From Methanobacteriota archaeon (lineage in GTDB: Archaea > Thermoplasmatota > Thermoplasmata > UBA10834): a stretch of 41,338 bases of DNA. The position numbers and the translations under genes are program-made. Location of the stretch: assembly GCA_020347565.1 (NCBI GenBank), contig CP070732.1:777175-818512 (forward strand). Direction: 5' to 3'. Positions 10,330 to 40,239 of this stretch are shown here, one piece after another. Each line of letters starts with the position of its first letter. Within the stretch, counting starts at the first letter, position 1. The notes beneath the pieces are model-generated. The model was not told the DNA's origin. It made no database searches and was given only the letters and a program-made list of their open reading frames with translations.

Positions 10330-13300
10330 TCAGCGAGCCGTTCCCTCGCCAAGCTCGTCGCCGGGTCGACCGCCTGTGAGAGAGCCGTCCGGACGCCCGC
10401 ATCTGTTCCGGACGCGCCTTCGTAGGATGAATGCCGTGAACATGGCAAGCGTGGTGAGCACGGGCACGATCACATCGTCGAACTCAGGTATGACATCGAA
10501 GAACACCTCGATGGTCCCTGTAGTGTTCTGGGTCCATAGCCAACACACCTTCGACTCGCCGTCAACGCTGTAGATCGAGGTCAAGTAGTGTTTCACGCAG
10601 GAGCTCTGGGCGCCGAACGAGATGCTGGTCCAGCTTCCGCCGTCGGACTTCGTCTTTCCCATTACGGTACTGGGGACGCTGCTGGTGTCCGTCCTCATCC
10701 AGAAGGCGTAGAGATCCCCGGTAGCGGAGTCGACGCTGATCGTCGGGTACTTGTTACCCACGTTGCTCGGTTTGGAGGAATCGAGGTCGATGCTTGTCGC
10801 CCATGTCGTCGCCCCTGTCTGGTTGTGCGTGTACCAGACAGCAGGTTTCGAATAGCCTCCCTCCTCGGACATGTCCCCATATACGACGTGTACGACCTGG
10901 CTGTCGCCGACGACCGCGGACGGTGGCGAGTTGAAGGTGTTCTCGTCCTGACTCCCTGATTCGGAGTATATCGTCTGTTCGCTGCTCTCCCACGTGCCGC
11001 TCGTCCGCTTCTTGCTGAAGACCTTCCCGTCATAGGCGAATATCGCCCACATGTCGCTCCCCGTCCCGGCTGGTACGATGGAGCCGCAGATGTCGCTGTC
11101 CTGAGTCTGAGCGCTTGGCAGCAGATCGCCCCTGGAGGTCCATGCGGTTATATCATTGATGGAGTCGCTCTGCCACGATCCAAGCTGGTACTTGACCTGG
11201 GGGCTCGTCCTTGTGAGGTCGGTGCACAATATCCAGAGATAGCCGTTCGCGTCCCTGGATATGTAGGAGTTCTTCTCCGAGGTCGCTTCGGTGGACACGG
11301 TGGGCGCCGAGTCGCTCGCAGCCCATGAGATGGTGCTCGTACTCGAGCTGACGGAGCCCTTCTGGACATAGATGTATCTGGTTGCGCTTGCCGAGTCCCC
11401 TACCGCATAGACCACGCTATTCGTCGAGTCGTGCCAAACTGAGACCTCCCTCACACCAGAGGTCTTGAAGACGCTGCCCCTGCTCGTCCAAGTCGCTCCA
11501 CCGTCGTCGCTGTACTCACATACGGTGTCGCTGCCGTCGAAGTAGAAGCTCCAGAAGTTCTCACCGTCGTATAGCAGCTTCCTCTGGTAGGAGAGCGAAG
11601 TGGCGTATTGCGAAGTGCCGGACGAATCGACGACCCAAGTCCTCGGCCATATGAAGGTCGTCTGATTGCTGGCGTAGTCCGCCTCTCCTCGCCAATCCGT
11701 TGCCTCCACGAGGAAGTCGAAGCTGTCCGTGCCCCCGATCGCGTCCGCGAGCACCCCGATCTCAACTCTGCTCTCGTCTTTCGCGGCATCCAATTGCATG
11801 GGGATGAGCGCCCAGGCTCCTGCGATATACAGATATGATTGAACAGATGTGATCTTGCAGCAGAGGCCGCAGACTTCGATCATGTGGTCGGCGCCGATAG
11901 TCAGAGGTCCGACAGAAATCAGCATGCCAGACGCACTCGACCGATCGGAGTCTATGTAGATTCTGATGATGTCTTCGCCTGTGCGTCTTGCGGGCACCGT
12001 CGTCGCCCCTCCGGGGCTTATGTACGAAGTACATGTCTTCGGAACGTATGCGCCCGCGCACAGATAGCCGTTGACGCCGACGAAGAAGTACGAGCGTTCG
12101 TCCGTGATGTTCGTTCCGACCTGGTCTATGTCGATGTTCAGGTTCTCGAGCGTCGTCCCATCCATGTCGTCCGTTGTCCTGCCTTCCCAGTCCGCGAAGG
12201 CTCCGTCTATCGTGACGCTTCCCGGAGGAGCATAGGCGTAAGCGCTCACAGGGCATCCGACGACGCGAGTGTATCTGAACGTTGAGGATATCTTCTCCTG
12301 GCTAATCGCGACCGACACGAACTGCCCGTCCACTAGCGCAGAGGAGTCCACGCGCAGATCTACGACATGCTCCTCCCCCACCTCGATCGCGAACGACCCG
12401 ATGGGCTCGAACGATGGCAAGCCCGAGAGAGTCGGTGTTACGCTCTCGACAGACCCTCCCACTCCCTGGCACGTGAACCGTAGCCTCGCATAGCTCGTGC
12501 TCGTCCCTCTCTGCAGGATGCCGTCTGACGATATCCCGGGAGCGGCCTGCTGCTCGACGATGAGCAGCCCGCCATCCATTGCGACAGGATGACTGATGCA
12601 GGTAACACCCCGCTGGGTCTGTGCCGTCAGGATGAACTTGGCGGACTCATTCAGACAGGCGGGGAGCCTCGCCATCGCCTCCAGCTGACTCTGCGCCACT
12701 GAACTCTTCACGTATCTCGCGTTCGACCACTGGCTCCAGTTGAGTCTGTCATCGTCTGAGCAGAATTCAAGCAGTAGGGACGAGCGAATAGATTCGTTCC
12801 AGCCGAAGATCTCCATCATGAAGTCCGCTCCAAAGCCTCCTACCATGTATCCCGTAGCGTCCGAGTCATCACTGTCCATGAACAGGACGAATCTCTCGGC
12901 TTCGGAGCTGGTCATCAGGCTCTCCTCCGCCCGGATGTATAGGAAGACCGTCTCGCCGTACGAGTCTACCGACCATTCTATCGTCTGGCCAACTTGGTCC
13001 GCAGATGCTGCTGTGGCCGTGAATGTTGTTCGGATATCCCAATCGCTGAAATCTCCGTCGATTGCGTGGGGCATTTCTTCTCCGATGGTCACCAGGTGGA
13101 GGACCGTCGGAGCGGTGACTACGATGGCCACGAGGACTGCTATGAACTGCCATCTGGCATAGAACGGAAGCCGCTCCTTTGCCGTGAGCGGATAATGCCT
13201 CCTGCCGGCCGAGCCGTTCAGGATGCCCATTCCGTTGACGAGGTCTCTGCCGTTGATGATGCCCTTTCCGTTCACGAGATGAGCGCCGTTGATCTGGCCT

Positions 13301-14052
13301 CTGCCATTGATCAGACTCTTGCCGTTGATCATCCCAGTGCCGTTGGTGACGCTGGCTCCGTTCGAGAGGCCCCTGGCCCTCTCGGCCCCTGCCTCGCGCG
13401 CGACGGTCATGAGCCCTTCGTGATCCTTGATGACCTTTGGCTTCGGCACCACATGGAGCTTCTTGATGGCTCTCGCAGGCATGGGCTTGAGCGCTTCGAG
13501 GAGCGGCTCTTCCTCGAGCTCGAAGTCCGCGCCACAGGATGGACACGTTGACACGACAAGGTCGACGAACTCCCCGCAGATGGGGCAATACGCCTGCTCC
13601 TCGGGCTCCAACAATCCGTCCGCTGCCTCGATCTCGAAGATGGCCCCGCAGTCAGGGCATTCCTGGTCCGAGAGGCTCACCGCCCTGCCGCATACAGGAC
13701 AGACCGCCTCCTCTGTGTCCTCGCCGCCCCCCACCTCGGGAGCCGGCTCCTCCAGGGGCGCCTCCTCGCCTTCGGGCTCCATCTCTTCTCTGAGGATGTC
13801 GATCTCCTGCGCGATTCTATCGAGCGCTTTCTCCAAGAGACGTTCTTCGGCCCTCTCAACGAAATCGTGGTAATTCACCTGGCAGGAAGGACAGCGTTCG
13901 GAGTCTGGCGACACGAGGGTGCCGCAGAAAGGGCACTCCAACTTGACGTCGTGACTGAACGGCTTCCCGCATCTAGGGCAGGCTCTCTCCAGTCCTGAAA
14001 CCCTCAGACTGCAGCCTGGGCATGAGAAGATCTTTGCTCTGCTTGGGGTCAT
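10330..14052 (-). CDS. Giant membrane protein: zinc ribbons, N-G repeat, membrane helix, extracellular CBM9-like and beta-propeller domains
   Basis: A 1240-residue protein. Residues 1-180 hold four paired CxxC zinc ribbons (CPGC/CPRC, CPFC/CPSC, CPVC/CPDC, CPIC/CPSC) with an acidic coiled stretch between the second and third. Residues 230-280 are nine hexapeptide N-G repeats. A membrane helix follows at 302-320. The rest should be outside: two CBM9/DOMON-like modules beginning IDGDFSDWD (331) and IDGAFADWEG (615), then about 350 residues resembling a BNR/sialidase propeller, with an Asp-box YSDDGGATWTS near 847-857. The end is VIPEFDDVIVPVLTTLAMF plus an Arg cluster, which resembles archaeal PEF-type C-terminal anchors. 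Zinc ribbons inside and sugar- or protein-binding modules outside suggest signalling or scaffolding across the membrane; the function is unknown. GGGAGAGG precedes the ATG. Confidence 0.9.
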   Translation of the reverse strand: MTPSRAKIFSCPGCSLRVSGLERACPRCGKPFSHDVKLECPFCGTLVSPDSERCPSCQVNYHDFVERAEERLLEKALDRIAQEIDILREEMEPEGEEAPLEEPAPEVGGGEDTEEAVCPVCGRAVSLSDQECPDCGAIFEIEAADGLLEPEEQAYCPICGEFVDLVVSTCPSCGADFELEEEPLLEALKPMPARAIKKLHVVPKPKVIKDHEGLMTVAREAGAERARGLSNGASVTNGTGMINGKSLINGRGQINGAHLVNGKGIINGRDLVNGMGILNGSAGRRHYPLTAKERLPFYARWQFIAVLVAIVVTAPTVLHLVTIGEEMPHAIDGDFSDWDIRTTFTATAASADQVGQTIEWSVDSYGETVFLYIRAEESLMTSSEAERFVLFMDSDDSDATGYMVGGFGADFMMEIFGWNESIRSSLLLEFCSDDDRLNWSQWSNARYVKSSVAQSQLEAMARLPACLNESAKFILTAQTQRGVTCISHPVAMDGGLLIVEQQAAPGISSDGILQRGTSTSYARLRFTCQGVGGSVESVTPTLSGLPSFEPIGSFAIEVGEEHVVDLRVDSSALVDGQFVSVAISQEKISSTFRYTRVVGCPVSAYAYAPPGSVTIDGAFADWEGRTTDDMDGTTLENLNIDIDQVGTNITDERSYFFVGVNGYLCAGAYVPKTCTSYISPGGATTVPARRTGEDIIRIYIDSDRSSASGMLISVGPLTIGADHMIEVCGLCCKITSVQSYLYIAGAWALIPMQLDAAKDESRVEIGVLADAIGGTDSFDFLVEATDWRGEADYASNQTTFIWPRTWVVDSSGTSQYATSLSYQRKLLYDGENFWSFYFDGSDTVCEYSDDGGATWTSRGSVFKTSGVREVSVWHDSTNSVVYAVGDSASATRYIYVQKGSVSSSTSTISWAASDSAPTVSTEATSEKNSYISRDANGYLWILCTDLTRTSPQVKYQLGSWQSDSINDITAWTSRGDLLPSAQTQDSDICGSIVPAGTGSDMWAIFAYDGKVFSKKRTSGTWESSEQTIYSESGSQDENTFNSPPSAVVGDSQVVHVVYGDMSEEGGYSKPAVWYTHNQTGATTWATSIDLDSSKPSNVGNKYPTISVDSATGDLYAFWMRTDTSSVPSTVMGKTKSDGGSWTSISFGAQSSCVKHYLTSIYSVDGESKVCWLWTQNTTGTIEVFFDVIPEFDDVIVPVLTTLAMFTAFILRRRVRNRCGRPDGSLTGGRPGDELGEGTAR
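13213..13365 (-). repeat. 18-bp-period coding repeat, nine N-G hexapeptides
   Basis: Residues 230-280 of the 1240-residue protein repeat every six residues with an invariant Asn-Gly: SNGASV, TNGTGM, INGKSL, INGRGQ, INGAHL, VNGKGI, INGRDL, VNGMGI, LNGSAG. A hydrophobic residue precedes each Asn. It sits between the zinc ribbons and the membrane helix. Confidence 0.85.
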
Positions 14053-17850: not shown

Positions 17851-17862
17851 ACGTTTATTAGG
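17851..17862. promoter_or_regulatory. Shared TATA-like element between the LOG-like gene and the SPFH operon
   Basis: ACGTTTATTAGG on the plus strand places transcription near 17882, giving a leader of about 26 bases with GAGGAGGG at 17892-17899 before ATG 17908. The complement (CCTAATAAACGT) is positioned about 60 bases before the LOG-like start. One element may serve both directions. Confidence 0.45.
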
Positions 17863-17907
17863 CCAACCAAGCGATATTGAGGCACCGTGCTGAGGAGGGC
17901 GTCCAGG

Positions 17908-18438
17908 ATGGCCGATACAAGGGAGAGGATCGAAGAGGACAGGGGCCTGCTGAAGAAGATCCAGACCTACATCCCAGGATTCAAGGGATACAGGCAGCGA
18001 GAGGACCTGAGGGACGCGGACAGGATGCTCAGGACCCAGCTCGCAGAAAAGCTGGCCCTTCACAGGAGAGGCCTTGAGGAGTGCAGGGGAATACTCGCCC
18101 AGAGCCAGGGCGCCAAGGAGATCGGGATGATAGGCGGCCTGATCAGCCAGTTCAAGAAGGTGGAGGGCCAGGTGACGCATGCAGCGATGGGCTACTCTGG
18201 AGTCGCCGCCGACATCGCCGTGAAGGAGGAGGAGCTTGACAGACTGTACGAATACGACACGAGCATGCTCGACCATATGATTGCGATGTCTGCGAGCATC
18301 GAATCGCTCAAGAACTCCCTCATGGCGGCGGACGAGGCGACGAGCTTCCGAGACATCATGAACATCAAGGCCCGGATCACGGACTTCGAGGATAAGTTCA
18401 AAGCGCGTCTGAGGGCGATAGAGGGCACGGAGGTGTGA
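17908..18438 (+). CDS. Coiled-coil protein, first gene of the SPFH/zinc-ribbon operon
   Basis: A 176-residue protein that is almost entirely charged alpha-helix with long coiled-coil stretches (for example ERIEEDRGLLKKIQTYI near the start, and FEDKFKARLRAIEG at the end). No membrane segment or cysteine pair. ATG 17908 follows GAGGAGGG by eight bases. In Bacillus ydjFGHI the SPFH/zinc-ribbon proteins are encoded with a PspA-type coiled-coil protein; this protein holds the same place in the operon, though it is shorter than PspA (about 220) and I see no clear PspA signature. It ends five bases before the SPFH gene. A role as a membrane-associated scaffold is inference. Confidence 0.75.
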   Translation: MADTRERIEEDRGLLKKIQTYIPGFKGYRQREDLRDADRMLRTQLAEKLALHRRGLEECRGILAQSQGAKEIGMIGGLISQFKKVEGQVTHAAMGYSGVAADIAVKEEELDRLYEYDTSMLDHMIAMSASIESLKNSLMAADEATSFRDIMNIKARITDFEDKFKARLRAIEGTEV

Positions 18439-18442
18439 TTAC

Positions 18443-19558
18443 TTGAGTCTCATAGGAGCGGACACGTTCAAGTGGGAGGACAGCGACAAGCGCTCGAACA
18501 TAATGTACCGGATGCCGAGGAACATCAGGTTCAACGACAATATCGTGGTCAGGGAGGACGAGATCGCCGTGTTCTTCCGGGACGGCAAAGCGCTTGCCTA
18601 CATAGACCGCCCCGACAGATACGCGCTCACCTCTCTGAACGCCCCCGTTGTCGGGAGGATCGTGAGGTTCCTATCCGGCGTGCAGCAGCAGGCTGAGGTC
18701 GTCTATCTTCAGAGACGTGTCTTCGACGCCAAGTTCGGCAGCAAGCAGCCGTATCAGTTCAGGGACAAGGAGTTCGGCATGGTGAACCTGAGGGTGTTCG
18801 GCGAGTTCAGGTTCAAGGTCATCTCTCCGGAGAACTTCGTCAACCAGTTCGTGGGGACGCTCAACTTCGCCACCAGTGCCGAGGTGGAGGAGCGCATAAA
18901 GGAGCAGATGGTGGTTCTCGTCTACGATTCCATAGGAGACATGAAGAAGGACGGCATGGGCGTGGCTGACATCGCGAGCAGCCTCACTGACATCGAGCAG
19001 GTCATTCTCGCCAGGTGCAAGGACCATTTTGACCTCTACGGCCTTGGGGTCGACAAGCTGTCAGGGCTGTACGTGTCGTTGCCGGAGGAGGTTCAGAAGG
19101 CGGTGGACACGCGCTCTTCCATGCAGGTGCTCGGGACGAACTACGTTCAGTACCAGACCGGACAGGCGATGCGCGAGGCCGCACAGAACCCCGAGGGAGG
19201 CACTGCTGGTGCAGGCGTCGGCGTGGGCGCTGGCATAGGCATGGGCTGGTCGATGATGGACGCGATGAAGCAGCCCTCCCCTCAGCAGCCGCCTGGGACT
19301 CAGCCGGCGCCTCAGGGTGTATCGTGCCCTAAGTGCACCGCGACGAACGCACCGGGCAGCAAGTTCTGCTCCTCGTGCGGGGCCAAGATGGCGGCGGACA
19401 CAGCAACCTGTCCGAAGTGCAGTGCGGAGGTGCCCGAGATCTCCAAGTTCTGCCCGGAATGCGGGGGCAGCATGAAGGTCACGAGGAAGTGCGCCGCCTG
19501 CGGCGCCGAGATGGCGAGCACGGTCAAGTTCTGCCCTGAGTGTGGCAAGGAAGCGTGA
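18443..19558 (+). CDS. SPFH/band 7-domain protein with three C-terminal zinc ribbons (YdjI-like)
   Basis: A 371-residue protein. Residues 1-230 are the SPFH-type domain seen in YdjI and 'virion core protein' relatives: FKWEDSDKRSNIMYRMP, NDNIVVREDEIAVFFRDGK, a middle segment with NLRVFGEFRFKVISPENFV, and GLGVDKLSGLYVSLPEEVQ. A Gly-rich linker (about 248-268) and a Pro/Gln stretch lead to three double-CxxC zinc ribbons (CPKC/CSSC, CPKC/CPEC, CAAC/CPEC). The start is TTG 18443 behind GGAGGTG seven bases away. In B. subtilis YdjI is brought to the membrane by YdjG/YdjH and then recruits the PspA-like YdjF. The same gene company here suggests an envelope-stress or lipid-domain role. Confidence 0.9.
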   Translation: MSLIGADTFKWEDSDKRSNIMYRMPRNIRFNDNIVVREDEIAVFFRDGKALAYIDRPDRYALTSLNAPVVGRIVRFLSGVQQQAEVVYLQRRVFDAKFGSKQPYQFRDKEFGMVNLRVFGEFRFKVISPENFVNQFVGTLNFATSAEVEERIKEQMVVLVYDSIGDMKKDGMGVADIASSLTDIEQVILARCKDHFDLYGLGVDKLSGLYVSLPEEVQKAVDTRSSMQVLGTNYVQYQTGQAMREAAQNPEGGTAGAGVGVGAGIGMGWSMMDAMKQPSPQQPPGTQPAPQGVSCPKCTATNAPGSKFCSSCGAKMAADTATCPKCSAEVPEISKFCPECGGSMKVTRKCAACGAEMASTVKFCPECGKEA

Positions 19559-19602
19559 GTAGTCCCCAGAGTCGCATGCGTCGGTGAAGGGACAGGGAGT
19601 CG

Positions 19603-20346
19603 ATGGCTTCTATCAAGTGTCCGAAGTGCGCGGCCCCTGTCGTGTTCGATGCGGGCACTAAATTCGTGAAGTGCACGTACTGCGATTCGCAGATATTCAT
19701 AGACCGCTCGGGTGCTGGCTTCTACTACGCCGCGCCGTTCTTGATCGACGAGGCGAATGCGATCGGCACGTTCCGCCGATGGGCCGCGGGACCGACGAAG
19801 GCGAAGAACCTGGACAGGCTCGCAGAGATCGCCAGCGTCACGAAGCACTACTTCCCGGTCTATATGTTCAAGCGCACGGTCGGAAGGAAGGAGCAGGTCA
19901 TGCTCGAGCCAGCGAGGTCGACCACGCTCCCTGGCCTTCACTCGCTCAAGGTGCCGGCGACCGACCTGAAGGTGTTTGACGCCGCGTTCGACACCGAAGG
20001 GGCCGAGGTGATACAGCCGGATATCGAGATGCTATCATATCTCGACGCTCTCCCGGGGGAGCCTGTGGAGCAGGCGCTGGTGTTCTTCCCCATATGGCGT
20101 CTGTCCTACGTCTTCGCTCAGAAGTGTTACGATGTGGTCATCGACGCCTCTGCGGGAGAGGTGTTCGCGGCAGGGTTTCCCACGAGGGGCTCAGCCGCCT
20201 ACGTGGTGGTGGCTGTCGTCGGATTCGCGGCGTTCACGCTCGAGGGCATCCTTGCGCTCGAATCCATGACCGCCGCGGCGTCACTGATGGCGTTGACCGT
20301 GGTGGGAGTGTTCACGGCTTCATACGCCGTCGCGAGGAGGCTGTGA
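19603..20346 (+). CDS. Zinc-ribbon membrane protein, YdjG-like (1 of 3)
   Basis: A 247-residue protein. One zinc ribbon at the N-terminus (CPKC at 6-9, CTYC at 24-27), then a soluble domain with paired strands (HYFPVYMFKRTVGRKEQV; LVFFPIWRLSYVFAQKCYDV) and, at about 198-245, two membrane helices (AAYVVVAVVGFAAFTLEGIL; ASLMALTVVGVFTASYAVA). The same layout recurs in the next gene, so they are diverged paralogs. YFPVY and FFPIWRLSY resemble the 'LPFWR' strands of the two following proteins. It follows the SPFH gene after 44 bases; GGGACAGGGAG lies before the ATG. The YdjG comparison is by architecture. Confidence 0.8.
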   Translation: MASIKCPKCAAPVVFDAGTKFVKCTYCDSQIFIDRSGAGFYYAAPFLIDEANAIGTFRRWAAGPTKAKNLDRLAEIASVTKHYFPVYMFKRTVGRKEQVMLEPARSTTLPGLHSLKVPATDLKVFDAAFDTEGAEVIQPDIEMLSYLDALPGEPVEQALVFFPIWRLSYVFAQKCYDVVIDASAGEVFAAGFPTRGSAAYVVVAVVGFAAFTLEGILALESMTAAASLMALTVVGVFTASYAVARRL

Positions 20347-20348
20347 CC

Positions 20349-21356
20349 GTGTCCGAAATCTCCGTCGGCCTGAACTGCCCTGCCTGTGGCGGCGCCATAT
20401 CGGTAGTCGAAGGCGACGACACCCTCATTTGCCCCTACTGCGACTCCACGCTGTTCATTGAGGGCGAAAGAGGGGTCTCCACAATCGCCTTCAAGAACAT
20501 ACTCACGCGGGACGGAGCCGTGGCGGAGACAATGCAGTGGTGGTCACGAGGCTGGAAGGCGAGGGACCTGAGCCGCACGGGCGCCGTCAGCGAGGTCTAT
20601 CCGATCTACCTGCCCTTCTGGAGATCCTCAACGCGGGTGGCGGGCTGGATATGCGGCTACACGGAACGCAGGTATACGGATGATAAGGGCAGAACGCACG
20701 TGCAGCGAGTGCCCAAGGAGGAGATGGTGCTGAACGACTATCTCTTCTCGGAGATAGCGACGGATCCTGGCGACTTGGGCATCACGAGCCTGCGCAACTT
20801 CTCGGGAGAGACGGGCTTTGCCGACTTCGACATGATACCCACGTTCGAGGCGACGACAGGTCGGGATGGCGCCGTTGAGCGCTCGAAATCAGACGCGATA
20901 TCCAGGGCGCGCAGGAGCGTCAGCGTGCCGCATATCACGCTGGAGAGGCTTCACGTGTTCCCGAGGAAGCTGTCCATGATCTACTATCCGATATGGGTCG
21001 TGCGATACTCGTACAGGAACAGGATGTACATGTCGACGGTGGACGGTGTGACGGGGGAGGTCCTGTCGGGACGAGCGCCAGGCGACCCCCTTTTCCAGAG
21101 CCTCGCGATCACCGCGGGCACCTCCGTAGGCGGACTCCTCGCGGCCGCAGGCATCATACTGTCGACGCTGACCGTCTCCGAGATACCGCTGGTCGCGTTG
21201 ATGATCGGAGCCGGGGTCCTGTACCTGACGTACAGGTTCTTCAGGCATGGCTCGGAGATCATCGAGGGCGACTTCAAGCACAAGCCCGCATCGGGTGGGG
21301 AGGCCATGAGGGGTTTGGGGGAGACTGCGCGGCTGATCAGGGGGGCGTATAGATGA
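20349..21356 (+). CDS. Zinc-ribbon membrane protein, YdjG-like (2 of 3)
   Basis: A 335-residue protein. One N-terminal zinc ribbon (CPAC, CPYC), a middle domain with YPIYLPFWRSSTRVAGWICG and MIYYPIWVVRYSYRNRMYMS (paired strands as in its neighbours), a GTSVGGLLAAAGIIL membrane helix and a second (IPLVALMIGAGVLYLTYRF), and a short basic tail. I chose GTG 20349, eight bases after GAGGAGG; GTG 20343 overlaps the previous stop as GTGA but is too close to that site. Translational coupling along the operon is clear, as its own stop overlaps the next ATG. Confidence 0.8.
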   Translation: MSEISVGLNCPACGGAISVVEGDDTLICPYCDSTLFIEGERGVSTIAFKNILTRDGAVAETMQWWSRGWKARDLSRTGAVSEVYPIYLPFWRSSTRVAGWICGYTERRYTDDKGRTHVQRVPKEEMVLNDYLFSEIATDPGDLGITSLRNFSGETGFADFDMIPTFEATTGRDGAVERSKSDAISRARRSVSVPHITLERLHVFPRKLSMIYYPIWVVRYSYRNRMYMSTVDGVTGEVLSGRAPGDPLFQSLAITAGTSVGGLLAAAGIILSTLTVSEIPLVALMIGAGVLYLTYRFFRHGSEIIEGDFKHKPASGGEAMRGLGETARLIRGAYR

Positions 21357-21943
21357 GGATCGTACAGGTCAGGTGTCCTTCGTGCAACACGCCGATCATG
21401 TCGAAGCAGAAGGACAGGTTCTTCCATTGCGACAAGTGCAATGTCCTCCATGTCCGGGACGGAGGCACGCGGAACGTCGACTACGAGATAGCTGAGTTCA
21501 GTGATTCCGCGCCTCTCGGCGAGCGGCTCTATGTCCCGTTCTGGAGGTTGTACTGCTCGTTCGTGATAAGGTCGAAGAGCGTCGAGGGCGGCTACGCGTT
21601 CCGATTGGCCTCGTGGATCAAGGGCTCGGACGACGGCGGCAGCCTGTTCATCTATGTCCCGGCAGCTGATTTCGATACGATGACCTTCAAGCGGCTCGCG
21701 ATAGATTTCACCGTCAGATCGCCGAACTACAGGACAAGGCTGAACTTCGGCGGCGTGCGCAGAATGCCAGCGAGGGTCTCGTCCGAGGAGGCCTCGGAGC
21801 TGGCCGATTTCGTGGTTGTGACGATGGAGGCCGAGAAGCCCGGCGTCCTGCAGAGGCTCGACTACTCGTTGACGGTACTGGGCTCGAAGATCGTGTATCT
21901 GCCGTTCGTGTCTTCGCCGAGCGGTCTTGTGCCCGCATTGTAG
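21353..21943 (+). CDS. Zinc-ribbon protein (3 of 3), last gene of the SPFH operon
   Basis: A 196-residue protein starting at the ATGA overlap with the gene before. One N-terminal zinc ribbon (CPSC at 8-11, CDKC at 26-29), then a domain with LYVPFWRLYCSFVIRSKS and a late KIVYLPFVSSP, matching the paired-strand domain of its two neighbours but with no membrane helix. It may be a soluble partner of the two membrane versions. It ends 19 bases from the convergent ModE-NUDIX gene. Confidence 0.75.
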   Translation: MRIVQVRCPSCNTPIMSKQKDRFFHCDKCNVLHVRDGGTRNVDYEIAEFSDSAPLGERLYVPFWRLYCSFVIRSKSVEGGYAFRLASWIKGSDDGGSLFIYVPAADFDTMTFKRLAIDFTVRSPNYRTRLNFGGVRRMPARVSSEEASELADFVVVTMEAEKPGVLQRLDYSLTVLGSKIVYLPFVSSPSGLVPAL

Positions 21944-36830: not shown

Positions 36831-36840
36831 CTTTAATCTT
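36831..36840 (-). promoter_or_regulatory. TATA-like box of the FAD oxidoreductase gene
   Basis: The minus strand reads AAGATTAAAG about 55 bases before ATG 36779, leaving a leader of about 30 bases. The plus strand of the same site (CTTTAATC) may serve the divergent DUF763 gene about 100 bases away. Confidence 0.4.
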
Positions 36841-36934
36841 GTGGCAAACCTGCGATGACACTCATTACTCAGGCGGCGCACTTTCGCGGTGCCGCAGGGA
36901 AGGGGTATCTGGGCACTCTGCGATGGAGGTGGCC

Positions 36935-38053
36935 ATGGCCAGGAGATCGGGGATGATGGAGCTGCCGTTGCACGGCGGAGCTACCCCGAGGTGGCTGTTC
37001 GGGCGGATGGTCAACCTGTCCGGGGCGATATCCGAGGCCGTAGTGGACGAGTACGGCTCTGCGGAGCTGCTGAGGAGACTGGCCGACCCGTTGTGGTTCC
37101 AGGCGTTCTCCTGCGTAATAGGTTTCGACTGGCACTCGTCGGGGACGACAACGGTCACGTGCGGCGCCCTCAGAAAGGGCCTCGAGGACGCCGGCATAGG
37201 GGTCCGTCTCGCCGGAGGTAAGGGCGCCAACGTGCGTGACGCCGTCGGCCAAATCCGCTGGCTCGCCGACGCAGGTTTCATCAGCGACGCGAGCGCGAAC
37301 GAACTGGAGCGCTCGAGCAGACTGTCCGCGAAGGTGGACAGCTGCGCCGTTCAGGACGGTCACGATATCTACCATCACACCATCATCTTCGACGAGAGCG
37401 GCAGGTGGACCGTCGTCCAGCAGGGCATGTCGGACCGTACGGGCTTCGCCAGGAGATATCACTGGTGTTCGTCCGATCTCGACGGGGACTTTGTCAGAGA
37501 GCCGCACACGGGCATCGCGGGCACCAGGACGGGTGAGGTGCTCGACCTCACGAGCGATGCGAGCACGCAAGCCAGGGTCGTCTCGACTGACCTCGGATGC
37601 GAGAAGCCGTCCAGGGTGGAGGGGATCATACGGATGGCGTCCCTTGGGCATCAGAAGTCCCTCACCGAGTTCACGGACAGGGCCGAGGAGACCCTGTTCC
37701 GATCCTATATGATGCCCAAGCGCGTCGACTGGAACGCGCTCAGGAGATGCTACGAGGCGCAGCCGACCAACTACGAAGAACTCCTTCTCGTCAAAGGCGT
37801 CGGTCCGAAGCTGACACGGGCGCTCGCCCTCATCTCACAGGCCGTGTACGGCGCTCCGCTGTCTTGGGAGGACCCTGTCAAGTTCTCCTTTGCAGTCGGG
37901 GGGAAGGACGGTGTCCCGTTCCCCGTTGACAGGGAGTCGATGGACGCGGCGACGCGCACGCTCCGCGAAGCCGTCGACCAGTCGCGCATCGGCGTTCAGG
38001 ACAGGAAGGACGCCCTGAAGAGGCTCTCGCGATGCGCGGGCGGCTCCTCCTGA
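36935..38053 (+). CDS. DUF763-family protein
   Basis: A 372-residue protein. It starts MARRSGMMELPLHGGATPRW, matching the family's [KR]-[ST]-G-x-x-x-LPLHGG-x-x-PRWLF. Other marks: FSCVIGFDWHSSGTTTVTCG, LAGGKGANVRDAVGQI, SCAVQDGHDIYHHTIIF, GQQGM-like WTVVQQGMSDRTGFARRYHW, and a helix-hairpin-helix-like stretch LLLVKGVGPKLTRALALI near 290-310, suggesting nucleic-acid contact. The function is unknown. The ATG at 36935 is preceded by GGAGGTGG; upstream in-frame ATGs lie in Arg-rich, unconserved sequence. Confidence 0.85.
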   Translation: MARRSGMMELPLHGGATPRWLFGRMVNLSGAISEAVVDEYGSAELLRRLADPLWFQAFSCVIGFDWHSSGTTTVTCGALRKGLEDAGIGVRLAGGKGANVRDAVGQIRWLADAGFISDASANELERSSRLSAKVDSCAVQDGHDIYHHTIIFDESGRWTVVQQGMSDRTGFARRYHWCSSDLDGDFVREPHTGIAGTRTGEVLDLTSDASTQARVVSTDLGCEKPSRVEGIIRMASLGHQKSLTEFTDRAEETLFRSYMMPKRVDWNALRRCYEAQPTNYEELLLVKGVGPKLTRALALISQAVYGAPLSWEDPVKFSFAVGGKDGVPFPVDRESMDAATRTLREAVDQSRIGVQDRKDALKRLSRCAGGSS

Positions 38054-38107
38054 GCCGTTTGATCTGGGACGACTGTGCTCTGCATGGGTGACACCACCGG
38101 TGCGGAA

Positions 38108-38117
38108 GGGTTATGTC
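38108..38117 (+). promoter_or_regulatory. TATA-like box of the first zinc-ribbon paralog
   Basis: GGGTTATGTC is centred about 28 bases before GTG 38141, which fits a leaderless mRNA. A similar GGTTATTC stands at 38836-38843 before the second paralog, but nearer to its ATG. Confidence 0.35.
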
Positions 38118-38140
38118 TGTCGCATGCGTTCTGCAGGCTG

Positions 38141-38776
38141 GTGGGGATCCTGAGGAAGTGCGCTTCATGCGGGAGGGACAACGATAGCGAAGCTGAACAC
38201 TGCGTATTCTGCGGCAAACGGCTGATGGACCCTGGGATCTGCCCAGAGTGCGGGATCGCAAACCTTCCTGATGCGGCTCTGTGCAGGATCTGCGGAGCTA
38301 GTTTGTCTGGCAGCTCCAATGATCCCAAGGCCGTGGCAGACGAAAGGCCCGGCTACCGCGTCAAGTACCAGGCATGCCCCAAGTGCGGTAGCAAGCTGGG
38401 AGCGACACAGATCGAGTGCCCTGTCTGCGGACACGGTTCGTCCTATGAGGCAAAGGCGAGCAGGAGCCTTGGGCTCCCGATGGCTGCAGGCGTACTGCTG
38501 TTCATAGCAGGTATGATCAACATCTTCTGGGGGCTACTCATCGGCGAGACGTTCGGGCCGTACTTCGAGGACATCGAATACTGCGTCACAATCGAGGTGC
38601 TCGTGGGCATAATCGCGCTTCCCACGGCGTTCCTCTCCATGATGAGGAGGATGCTACCGTTCGTGATAGTGGCATCGGTGTTGACCATGGCGAGCCTTGG
38701 ACCGTTCTTAGTGTGCAGCATCTGCGGATTCTCCGCACTCGTCCTTCTCCTGCTGAGCGCCAAGGAGTTCGATTGA
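38141..38776 (+). CDS. Triple zinc-ribbon, four-helix membrane protein (paralog 1)
   Basis: A 211-residue protein. Three double-CxxC zinc ribbons: CASC/CVFC, CPEC/CRIC, CPKC/CPVC (residues about 8-100). Then hydrophobic segments: PMAAGVLLFIAGMINIFWGL, VTIEVLVGIIALPTAFLSM, LPFVIVASVLTMASLGPFL and CSICGFSALVLLLLSA, ending AKEFD. GTG 38141 is preferred because it begins just before the first ribbon and fits the TATA position; a longer frame to 38075 or 38084 is open but unconserved. No family assigned; zinc ribbons of this kind often bind protein or nucleic acid in the cytoplasm. Confidence 0.75.
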   Translation: MGILRKCASCGRDNDSEAEHCVFCGKRLMDPGICPECGIANLPDAALCRICGASLSGSSNDPKAVADERPGYRVKYQACPKCGSKLGATQIECPVCGHGSSYEAKASRSLGLPMAAGVLLFIAGMINIFWGLLIGETFGPYFEDIEYCVTIEVLVGIIALPTAFLSMMRRMLPFVIVASVLTMASLGPFLVCSICGFSALVLLLLSAKEFD

Positions 38777-38855
38777 CGAACGGGAATTCCGCAACTGCCA
38801 GCCGTGTGCTGGCCCGCTTTCGATGTGAGGACAAAGGTTATTCAGAAGAATCTCA

Positions 38856-39527
38856 ATGTCTTCTCAGGTGGGTCGAGTGGAGAGATGCAGGTCCTGCGGG
38901 AAGGAGAGCGAGGACGATTCGAAGTTCTGCGTGCATTGTGGCAGGCCGTTCAGCGAGGTGAAGAGGTGTCCCAAGTGCGGGCACGATAATCCTGCATTCA
39001 GCAGGTACTGCGGCGAGTGCAGTACTGAACTACCGGTAGTCGAGAGTAGCCCCTACGACTCAATGCCGGAAAAAGTGAGAAACCTACCGACTCAGAAGAA
39101 GTACTGTCCGACGTGCGGCGGCCAAATGAGCATCTACGATTCGGTGTGTCCGGCATGCGACGTCTCAGAGTCACGATTGGGCAAGGGCGAATTCCTTCGC
39201 ACCTCGCAGTCATCTGCCCCGACGATTGGCGGGGTCCTGGCAATCCTCGCGGGAGTGCTCGCAATCGGCCAAGGGCTGCTCTATATGGCTGGATCATCCA
39301 TCGTGGATATTCCCGGCAGCGGTACGCTCTGTTTCTGCGGGGCGGTCGATTTCGTTTTCGGGGCAGCCTCCGTCCTCGGAGGCCTCTCTGCTCTGAAGCG
39401 CGATGGCTTCACGCTGGCTATCATCGGCGCAGTAATGGGTATGCTGGGCTTAGGCTTCTTGATTGGAGGACTGTTCGGATTCATCGCCGTGATACTCATA
39501 GCAATGTCACGCAACGAGATATCATGA
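38856..39527 (+). CDS. Triple zinc-ribbon, four-helix membrane protein (paralog 2)
   Basis: A 223-residue protein with the same plan as its neighbours: zinc ribbons CRSC/CVHC, CPKC/CGEC and CPTC/CPAC, then membrane segments TIGGVLAILAGVLAIGQGLL, CFCGAVDFVFGAASVLGGL and FTLAIIGAVMGMLGLGFLIG, ending in FIAVILIAMSRNEIS. The common C-terminal pattern (hydrophobic run, S, two residues, acidic residue, hydrophobic) is shared with paralogs 1 and 3. GTG at 38868 or 38877 could be used instead of ATG 38856. Confidence 0.78.
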   Translation: MSSQVGRVERCRSCGKESEDDSKFCVHCGRPFSEVKRCPKCGHDNPAFSRYCGECSTELPVVESSPYDSMPEKVRNLPTQKKYCPTCGGQMSIYDSVCPACDVSESRLGKGEFLRTSQSSAPTIGGVLAILAGVLAIGQGLLYMAGSSIVDIPGSGTLCFCGAVDFVFGAASVLGGLSALKRDGFTLAIIGAVMGMLGLGFLIGGLFGFIAVILIAMSRNEIS

Positions 39528-39558
39528 GGCTGATTGGATGTTCTTTCAGGGGGGCTGA

Positions 39559-40239
39559 GTGTTGGAGTTCTGCAAGGAATGCAGCCACGCTAACCCGGAA
39601 GAATCTAGGTTCTGCAACGCCTGCGGCGCCCGTCTTGGAGAACCGGACGCGAGAGTGCCGCCCGATGTAGCCAAGGATAGAACACCTTGCCCCCGCTGCG
39701 GCACAGGCGTCGCATCGTACATGAGCTTCTGCCCCAACTGCGCTATGTCGTTGAGGTCTCTGATTCAAACGGTGCCCTCAGAGCGTGTCGGCAGATGTAG
39801 CGAATGCGGACGCGCGATATCGCCGGGAGCGACAGTCTGTGCGTTGTGCTCGTCGAAACTCTGGCTCGATTCAGAAGGAAACGCACCAACTCGATGGAAG
39901 AGGCTCGACAGGCCCACAATCGTGGGCATACTCCTCGTGGGATCCGCTGCTCTCACGGTGATATCTGTGGTCAGTCTGATACTGAACGGCGAAGTGGCTG
40001 TGCAGGCCGCCGAGCCTGTCGAAATTTCCGGCTTCTTGAGCTGTTGCGGCGTCATCCTAGCGTCTTCCGCGGCATGCAGTTTCGCCGGGGCGCTTCTGTC
40101 GTTCAGGAGAGAGAGACACACATACGTTGTCCTCGCCGCCGCCATCGGCATGCTCGGCGTCGGTCCATTCTTCCTCGCGTCCATCATGAGCCTGCTTGCG
40201 CTCATTCTGGCAGCTTTCTCCGCCACCGATTACGGCTAG
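39559..40239 (+). CDS. Triple zinc-ribbon, four-helix membrane protein (paralog 3)
   Basis: A 226-residue protein: zinc ribbons CKEC/CNAC, CPRC/CPNC and CSEC/CALC, then membrane segments IVGILLVGSAALTVISVVSL, GFLSCCGVILASSAACSFAG, YVVLAAAIGMLGVGPFFLA and IMSLLALILAAFSATDYG. The GMLGxGxFL and final S-x-x-acidic motif recur in paralogs 1 and 2. The start is GTG 39559 behind GGGGGGCTGA. Last gene before the convergent 23S rRNA. Confidence 0.78.
   Translation: MLEFCKECSHANPEESRFCNACGARLGEPDARVPPDVAKDRTPCPRCGTGVASYMSFCPNCAMSLRSLIQTVPSERVGRCSECGRAISPGATVCALCSSKLWLDSEGNAPTRWKRLDRPTIVGILLVGSAALTVISVVSLILNGEVAVQAAEPVEISGFLSCCGVILASSAACSFAGALLSFRRERHTYVVLAAAIGMLGVGPFFLASIMSLLALILAAFSATDYG

Follow-up and report, generated by a model that had tools for sequence, protein, structure and literature searches.

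The stretch of DNA analyzed here (the window) comprises 41,338 nucleotides of a Methanobacteriota archaeon of the Thermoplasmatota (assembly GCA_020347565.1, contig CP070732.1, positions 777,175 to 818,512), and it carries a module of five genes for a helical protein (CC), an SPFH protein, and three zinc-ribbon proteins (Z). The five-gene SPFH/zinc-ribbon set described in the first-pass annotation was confirmed, with the following window coordinates.

17908..18438, + strand: CC, first gene, a 176-residue helical protein related to NF047596 (LIMLP_15305)
18443..19558, + strand: YdjI-like SPFH/Band_7_1 protein (PF13421) with a stretch rich in glycine and, at the C-terminus, three zinc ribbons (DZR, Zn_Ribbon_1)
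19603..20346, + strand: third gene of the module
20349..21356, + strand: fourth gene of the module
21353..21943, + strand: fifth gene of the module

The SPFH protein matched PF13421 Band_7_1 with an expectation value (E) of 3.4e-34 and 118.7 bits, against a curated cut-off of 24, and its zinc ribbons were matched by the Pfam families DZR and Zn_Ribbon_1; the first-pass annotation had described it as a YdjI-like protein with three ribbons. No membrane segment was predicted in it; thus, a YdjI-like soluble SPFH protein with a zinc ribbon, a feature of the Bacillus pspA-ydjGHI operon type, is present in the module. The alternating glycines G258-G268 were invariant in 11/11 aligned sequences, and this stretch likely serves in oligomerization or membrane contact. 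The Z proteins are encoded by three genes with one ribbon each, and a membrane location was predicted for two of them. A PepSY-like core was observed, and weak TFIIB-ribbon matches were also obtained.

CC (translated from 17887) resembled NF047596 over nearly its whole length (residues 9-174; E 6.8e-15); however, it is not the same equivalog, because its 55.4 bits did not reach the curated cut-off of 210 bits, a value that was exceeded in none of 60 genomes. No Pfam family matched CC. The AlphaFold2 model (mean predicted local distance difference test score 85.1, predicted template modeling score 0.82) was all-helical, with helices at residues 3-21, 35-64, 69-91, 107-139, and 143-175, and the fold comparison gave only general helical bundles among the matches listed (50 rows in each of two lists), an outcome with which an ESCRT-III-like fold of CC would be compatible. 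Against four archaeal PspA proteins, CC showed no profile similarity (hhalign probability 0.8%). The first-pass annotation had put this gene in the place of PspA but had described it as shorter and unlike PspA in detail.

The association of CC with SPFH was examined in three samples. With the NF047596 profile, CC was found in 39/60 genomes, this one included, at 42 places; the 38 regions of relatives that were examined cover 39 of these places (leaving out this genome, G014:C7, and G012:C70), and SPFH directly followed CC in 37/39 cases. The two CC genes without a following SPFH gene (L047:5828-6373 and L058:5030-5677) are diverged second copies. A second set of named loci was drawn with CC alone (325 stretches, 240 confirmed, 80 kept), and SPFH followed CC in 79 of the 80, although this set overlaps the first, with several records representing genomes already in it; in the exception, L132, the contig edge lies inside CC. 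In L108 the SPFH frame is present, and the long open frames of CC and SPFH overlap. The SPFH frame was broken or short in L064, L077, L120, and L124, and the CC frame was short in L102, L106, and L124.

Among 292 Thermoplasmatota genomes (159 of them good), CC was found in 77 (68 of the good ones), at 79 places, and a strong Band_7_1 match lay downstream on the same strand at 75 of these, within 171 bases in 74 and at 1.3 kilobases in one (G139). The remaining four places were G305, 137 bases from a contig end; G095 (coordinates of L101), where the sequence ends just after the SPFH start; and G286:C18 and G082, with E of 4.4e-4 and 1.2e-10, respectively. Conversely, 84 Band_7_1 matches at E<=1e-12 were found in these genomes, of which 75 adjoin CC and nine do not. 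Taken together, up to five genes for an SPFH protein, a helical protein, and zinc-ribbon proteins are kept together in some archaea; CC and SPFH are nearly inseparable, and the Z genes vary in number.

Separately, the order-level relatives represented by L047 and L058 each have a second, more diverged CC. Other zinc-ribbon proteins were also observed in the window: a 1240-residue protein (10333-14052, - strand) has several zinc-ribbon stretches (DZR, Zn_ribbon_3) and no other Pfam family at E 1e-4, and three tandem proteins of 223-233 residues (38075-40239, + strand), each with zinc-ribbon matches, follow a DUF763 gene (36839-38053).

Membrane repair is generally regarded as an ancient role of the PspA/ESCRT-III family (PMC11188069), but a published survey of 915 archaeal genomes detected no Psp domain of any kind in over half of them (PMC9239133). 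PspA_IM30 (PF04012) was not found in this genome (90% complete) and exceeded the cut-off in 0/60 genomes, with two weak fragments at E<0.001. In the Thermoplasmatota sample it exceeded the cut-off in 3/292 genomes (seven at E<0.001), two of which, G260 and G289, also have CC; 214/292 have neither. Snf7 was absent from this genome (4/60 at E<=0.001, 2 over the cut-off), as was TPM (PF04536, the YdjH domain), which occurs in 8/60 genomes and adjoins the module, as a LemA-TPM neighborhood, in L033, L097, and L098. PspA was absent from three of eight named-locus genomes tested (L079, L093, and L097). A simple replacement of PspA by CC is opposed by the presence of PspA in 5/5 module genomes tested outside Thermoplasmatota (L104, L107, L112, L118, and L119; in L118 only CC and SPFH were seen) and by the two PspA genes described for Methanoperedens BLZ2 (PMC9239133).

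We propose that the module with its helical CC is likely a membrane-protection scaffold in some archaea, most of them without PspA. A bolder form, to which we assign a probability of roughly three in ten, is that CC founds a membrane-bracing family unrelated to PspA/ESCRT-III, which would occupy the position of PspA on an SPFH scaffold of the YdjI type as part of a second, independently evolved envelope-repair system for archaea without PspA, with the membrane adaptor split into a three-gene set.

It is possible, but rather doubtful, that the module is instead a constitutive membrane-domain organizer of the NfeD-stomatin kind, in which SPFH cages would segregate membrane proteins or proteases and CC would be a structural cage partner rather than a stress-induced effector. 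The near inseparability of SPFH and CC alongside a varying number of Z genes would suit such an organizer, and an NfeD-stomatin pair adjoins the module in 6/80 named loci (L079 and L084 by Pfam, the rest by phmmer; L024 has another arrangement). However, stomatins carry a membrane segment and the module SPFH does not, its domain make-up resembles the YdjI type, and no NfeD gene adjoins the module in this window. A unit for quality control or membrane-protein assembly, in which zinc ribbons and PepSY-like cores bind clients that SPFH and CC hold at the membrane, appears unlikely: the PepSY-like core, the three LemA-TPM neighborhoods, and the chaperone-like reading given to band-7 and TPM domains (PMC11237479) favor it, but no recurrent protease or chaperone gene was recognized in the neighbor clusters, a weak counterpoint since these were read by eye and mostly without a family-library run. 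A regulatory unit, with zinc ribbons binding DNA or RNA polymerase and membrane proteins holding a transcription regulator, is quite improbable, although the YdjG zinc ribbon has been read as DNA-binding (PMC9239133) and the weak TFIIB-ribbon matches point the same way. Least probable of all is a true Psp system with CC as an extremely diverged PspA/ESCRT-III protein: CC adjoins a YdjI-like SPFH gene and its model is all-helical, but it lacks profile similarity to PspA, its helices after the first span 23-33 residues and those of PspA are longer, and genuine PspA occurs in some of the same genomes.

In Thermoplasmatota, this conserved combination of SPFH and zinc ribbons with another helical protein offers candidate proteins for how cells without PspA could guard their membranes, and it puts the question within reach of experiments on five genes. 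In modules of this kind, the SPFH protein and the zinc-ribbon adaptor, rather than PspA, may form the fixed core, with an exchangeable effector.

Among known systems, proteins with two ribbons, annotated by sources as 'primosomal protein', 'RPC12/RpoP', or 'LSD1 zinc finger', differ from the three one-ribbon Z proteins of the window. The Meth_adaptin ESCRT loci, as described in PMC11188069, likewise combine an archaeal SPFH protein with a coiled coil and zinc ribbon and are linked to membrane remodeling; however, they are centered on Vps4-like and adaptin genes, neither of which was among the ten identified open reading frames of the window, where no family search was aimed at Vps4 or adaptin. 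The first-pass annotation had suggested that the module may be a distinct archaeal version of the Bacillus ydjFGHI envelope-stress module, and this was supported in part: a YdjI-like SPFH is present, and PspA and TPM are both missing here. In the Bacillus operon type, the membrane proteins recruit SPFH and its partner to the membrane, and YdjG combines ribbons, a YpeB-related domain, and a membrane segment. Compared with the Bacillus subtilis pspA-ydjGHI operon, SPFH is second rather than last, three ribbon genes stand in place of one, and CC is no sequence kin of PspA. Nevertheless, the two share a soluble SPFH protein with a low-complexity stretch and a C-terminal zinc finger, as described for YdjI (PMC8581546), together with membrane zinc-ribbon protein(s) and a helical partner encoded by the first gene (PMC8581546, PMC11237479).
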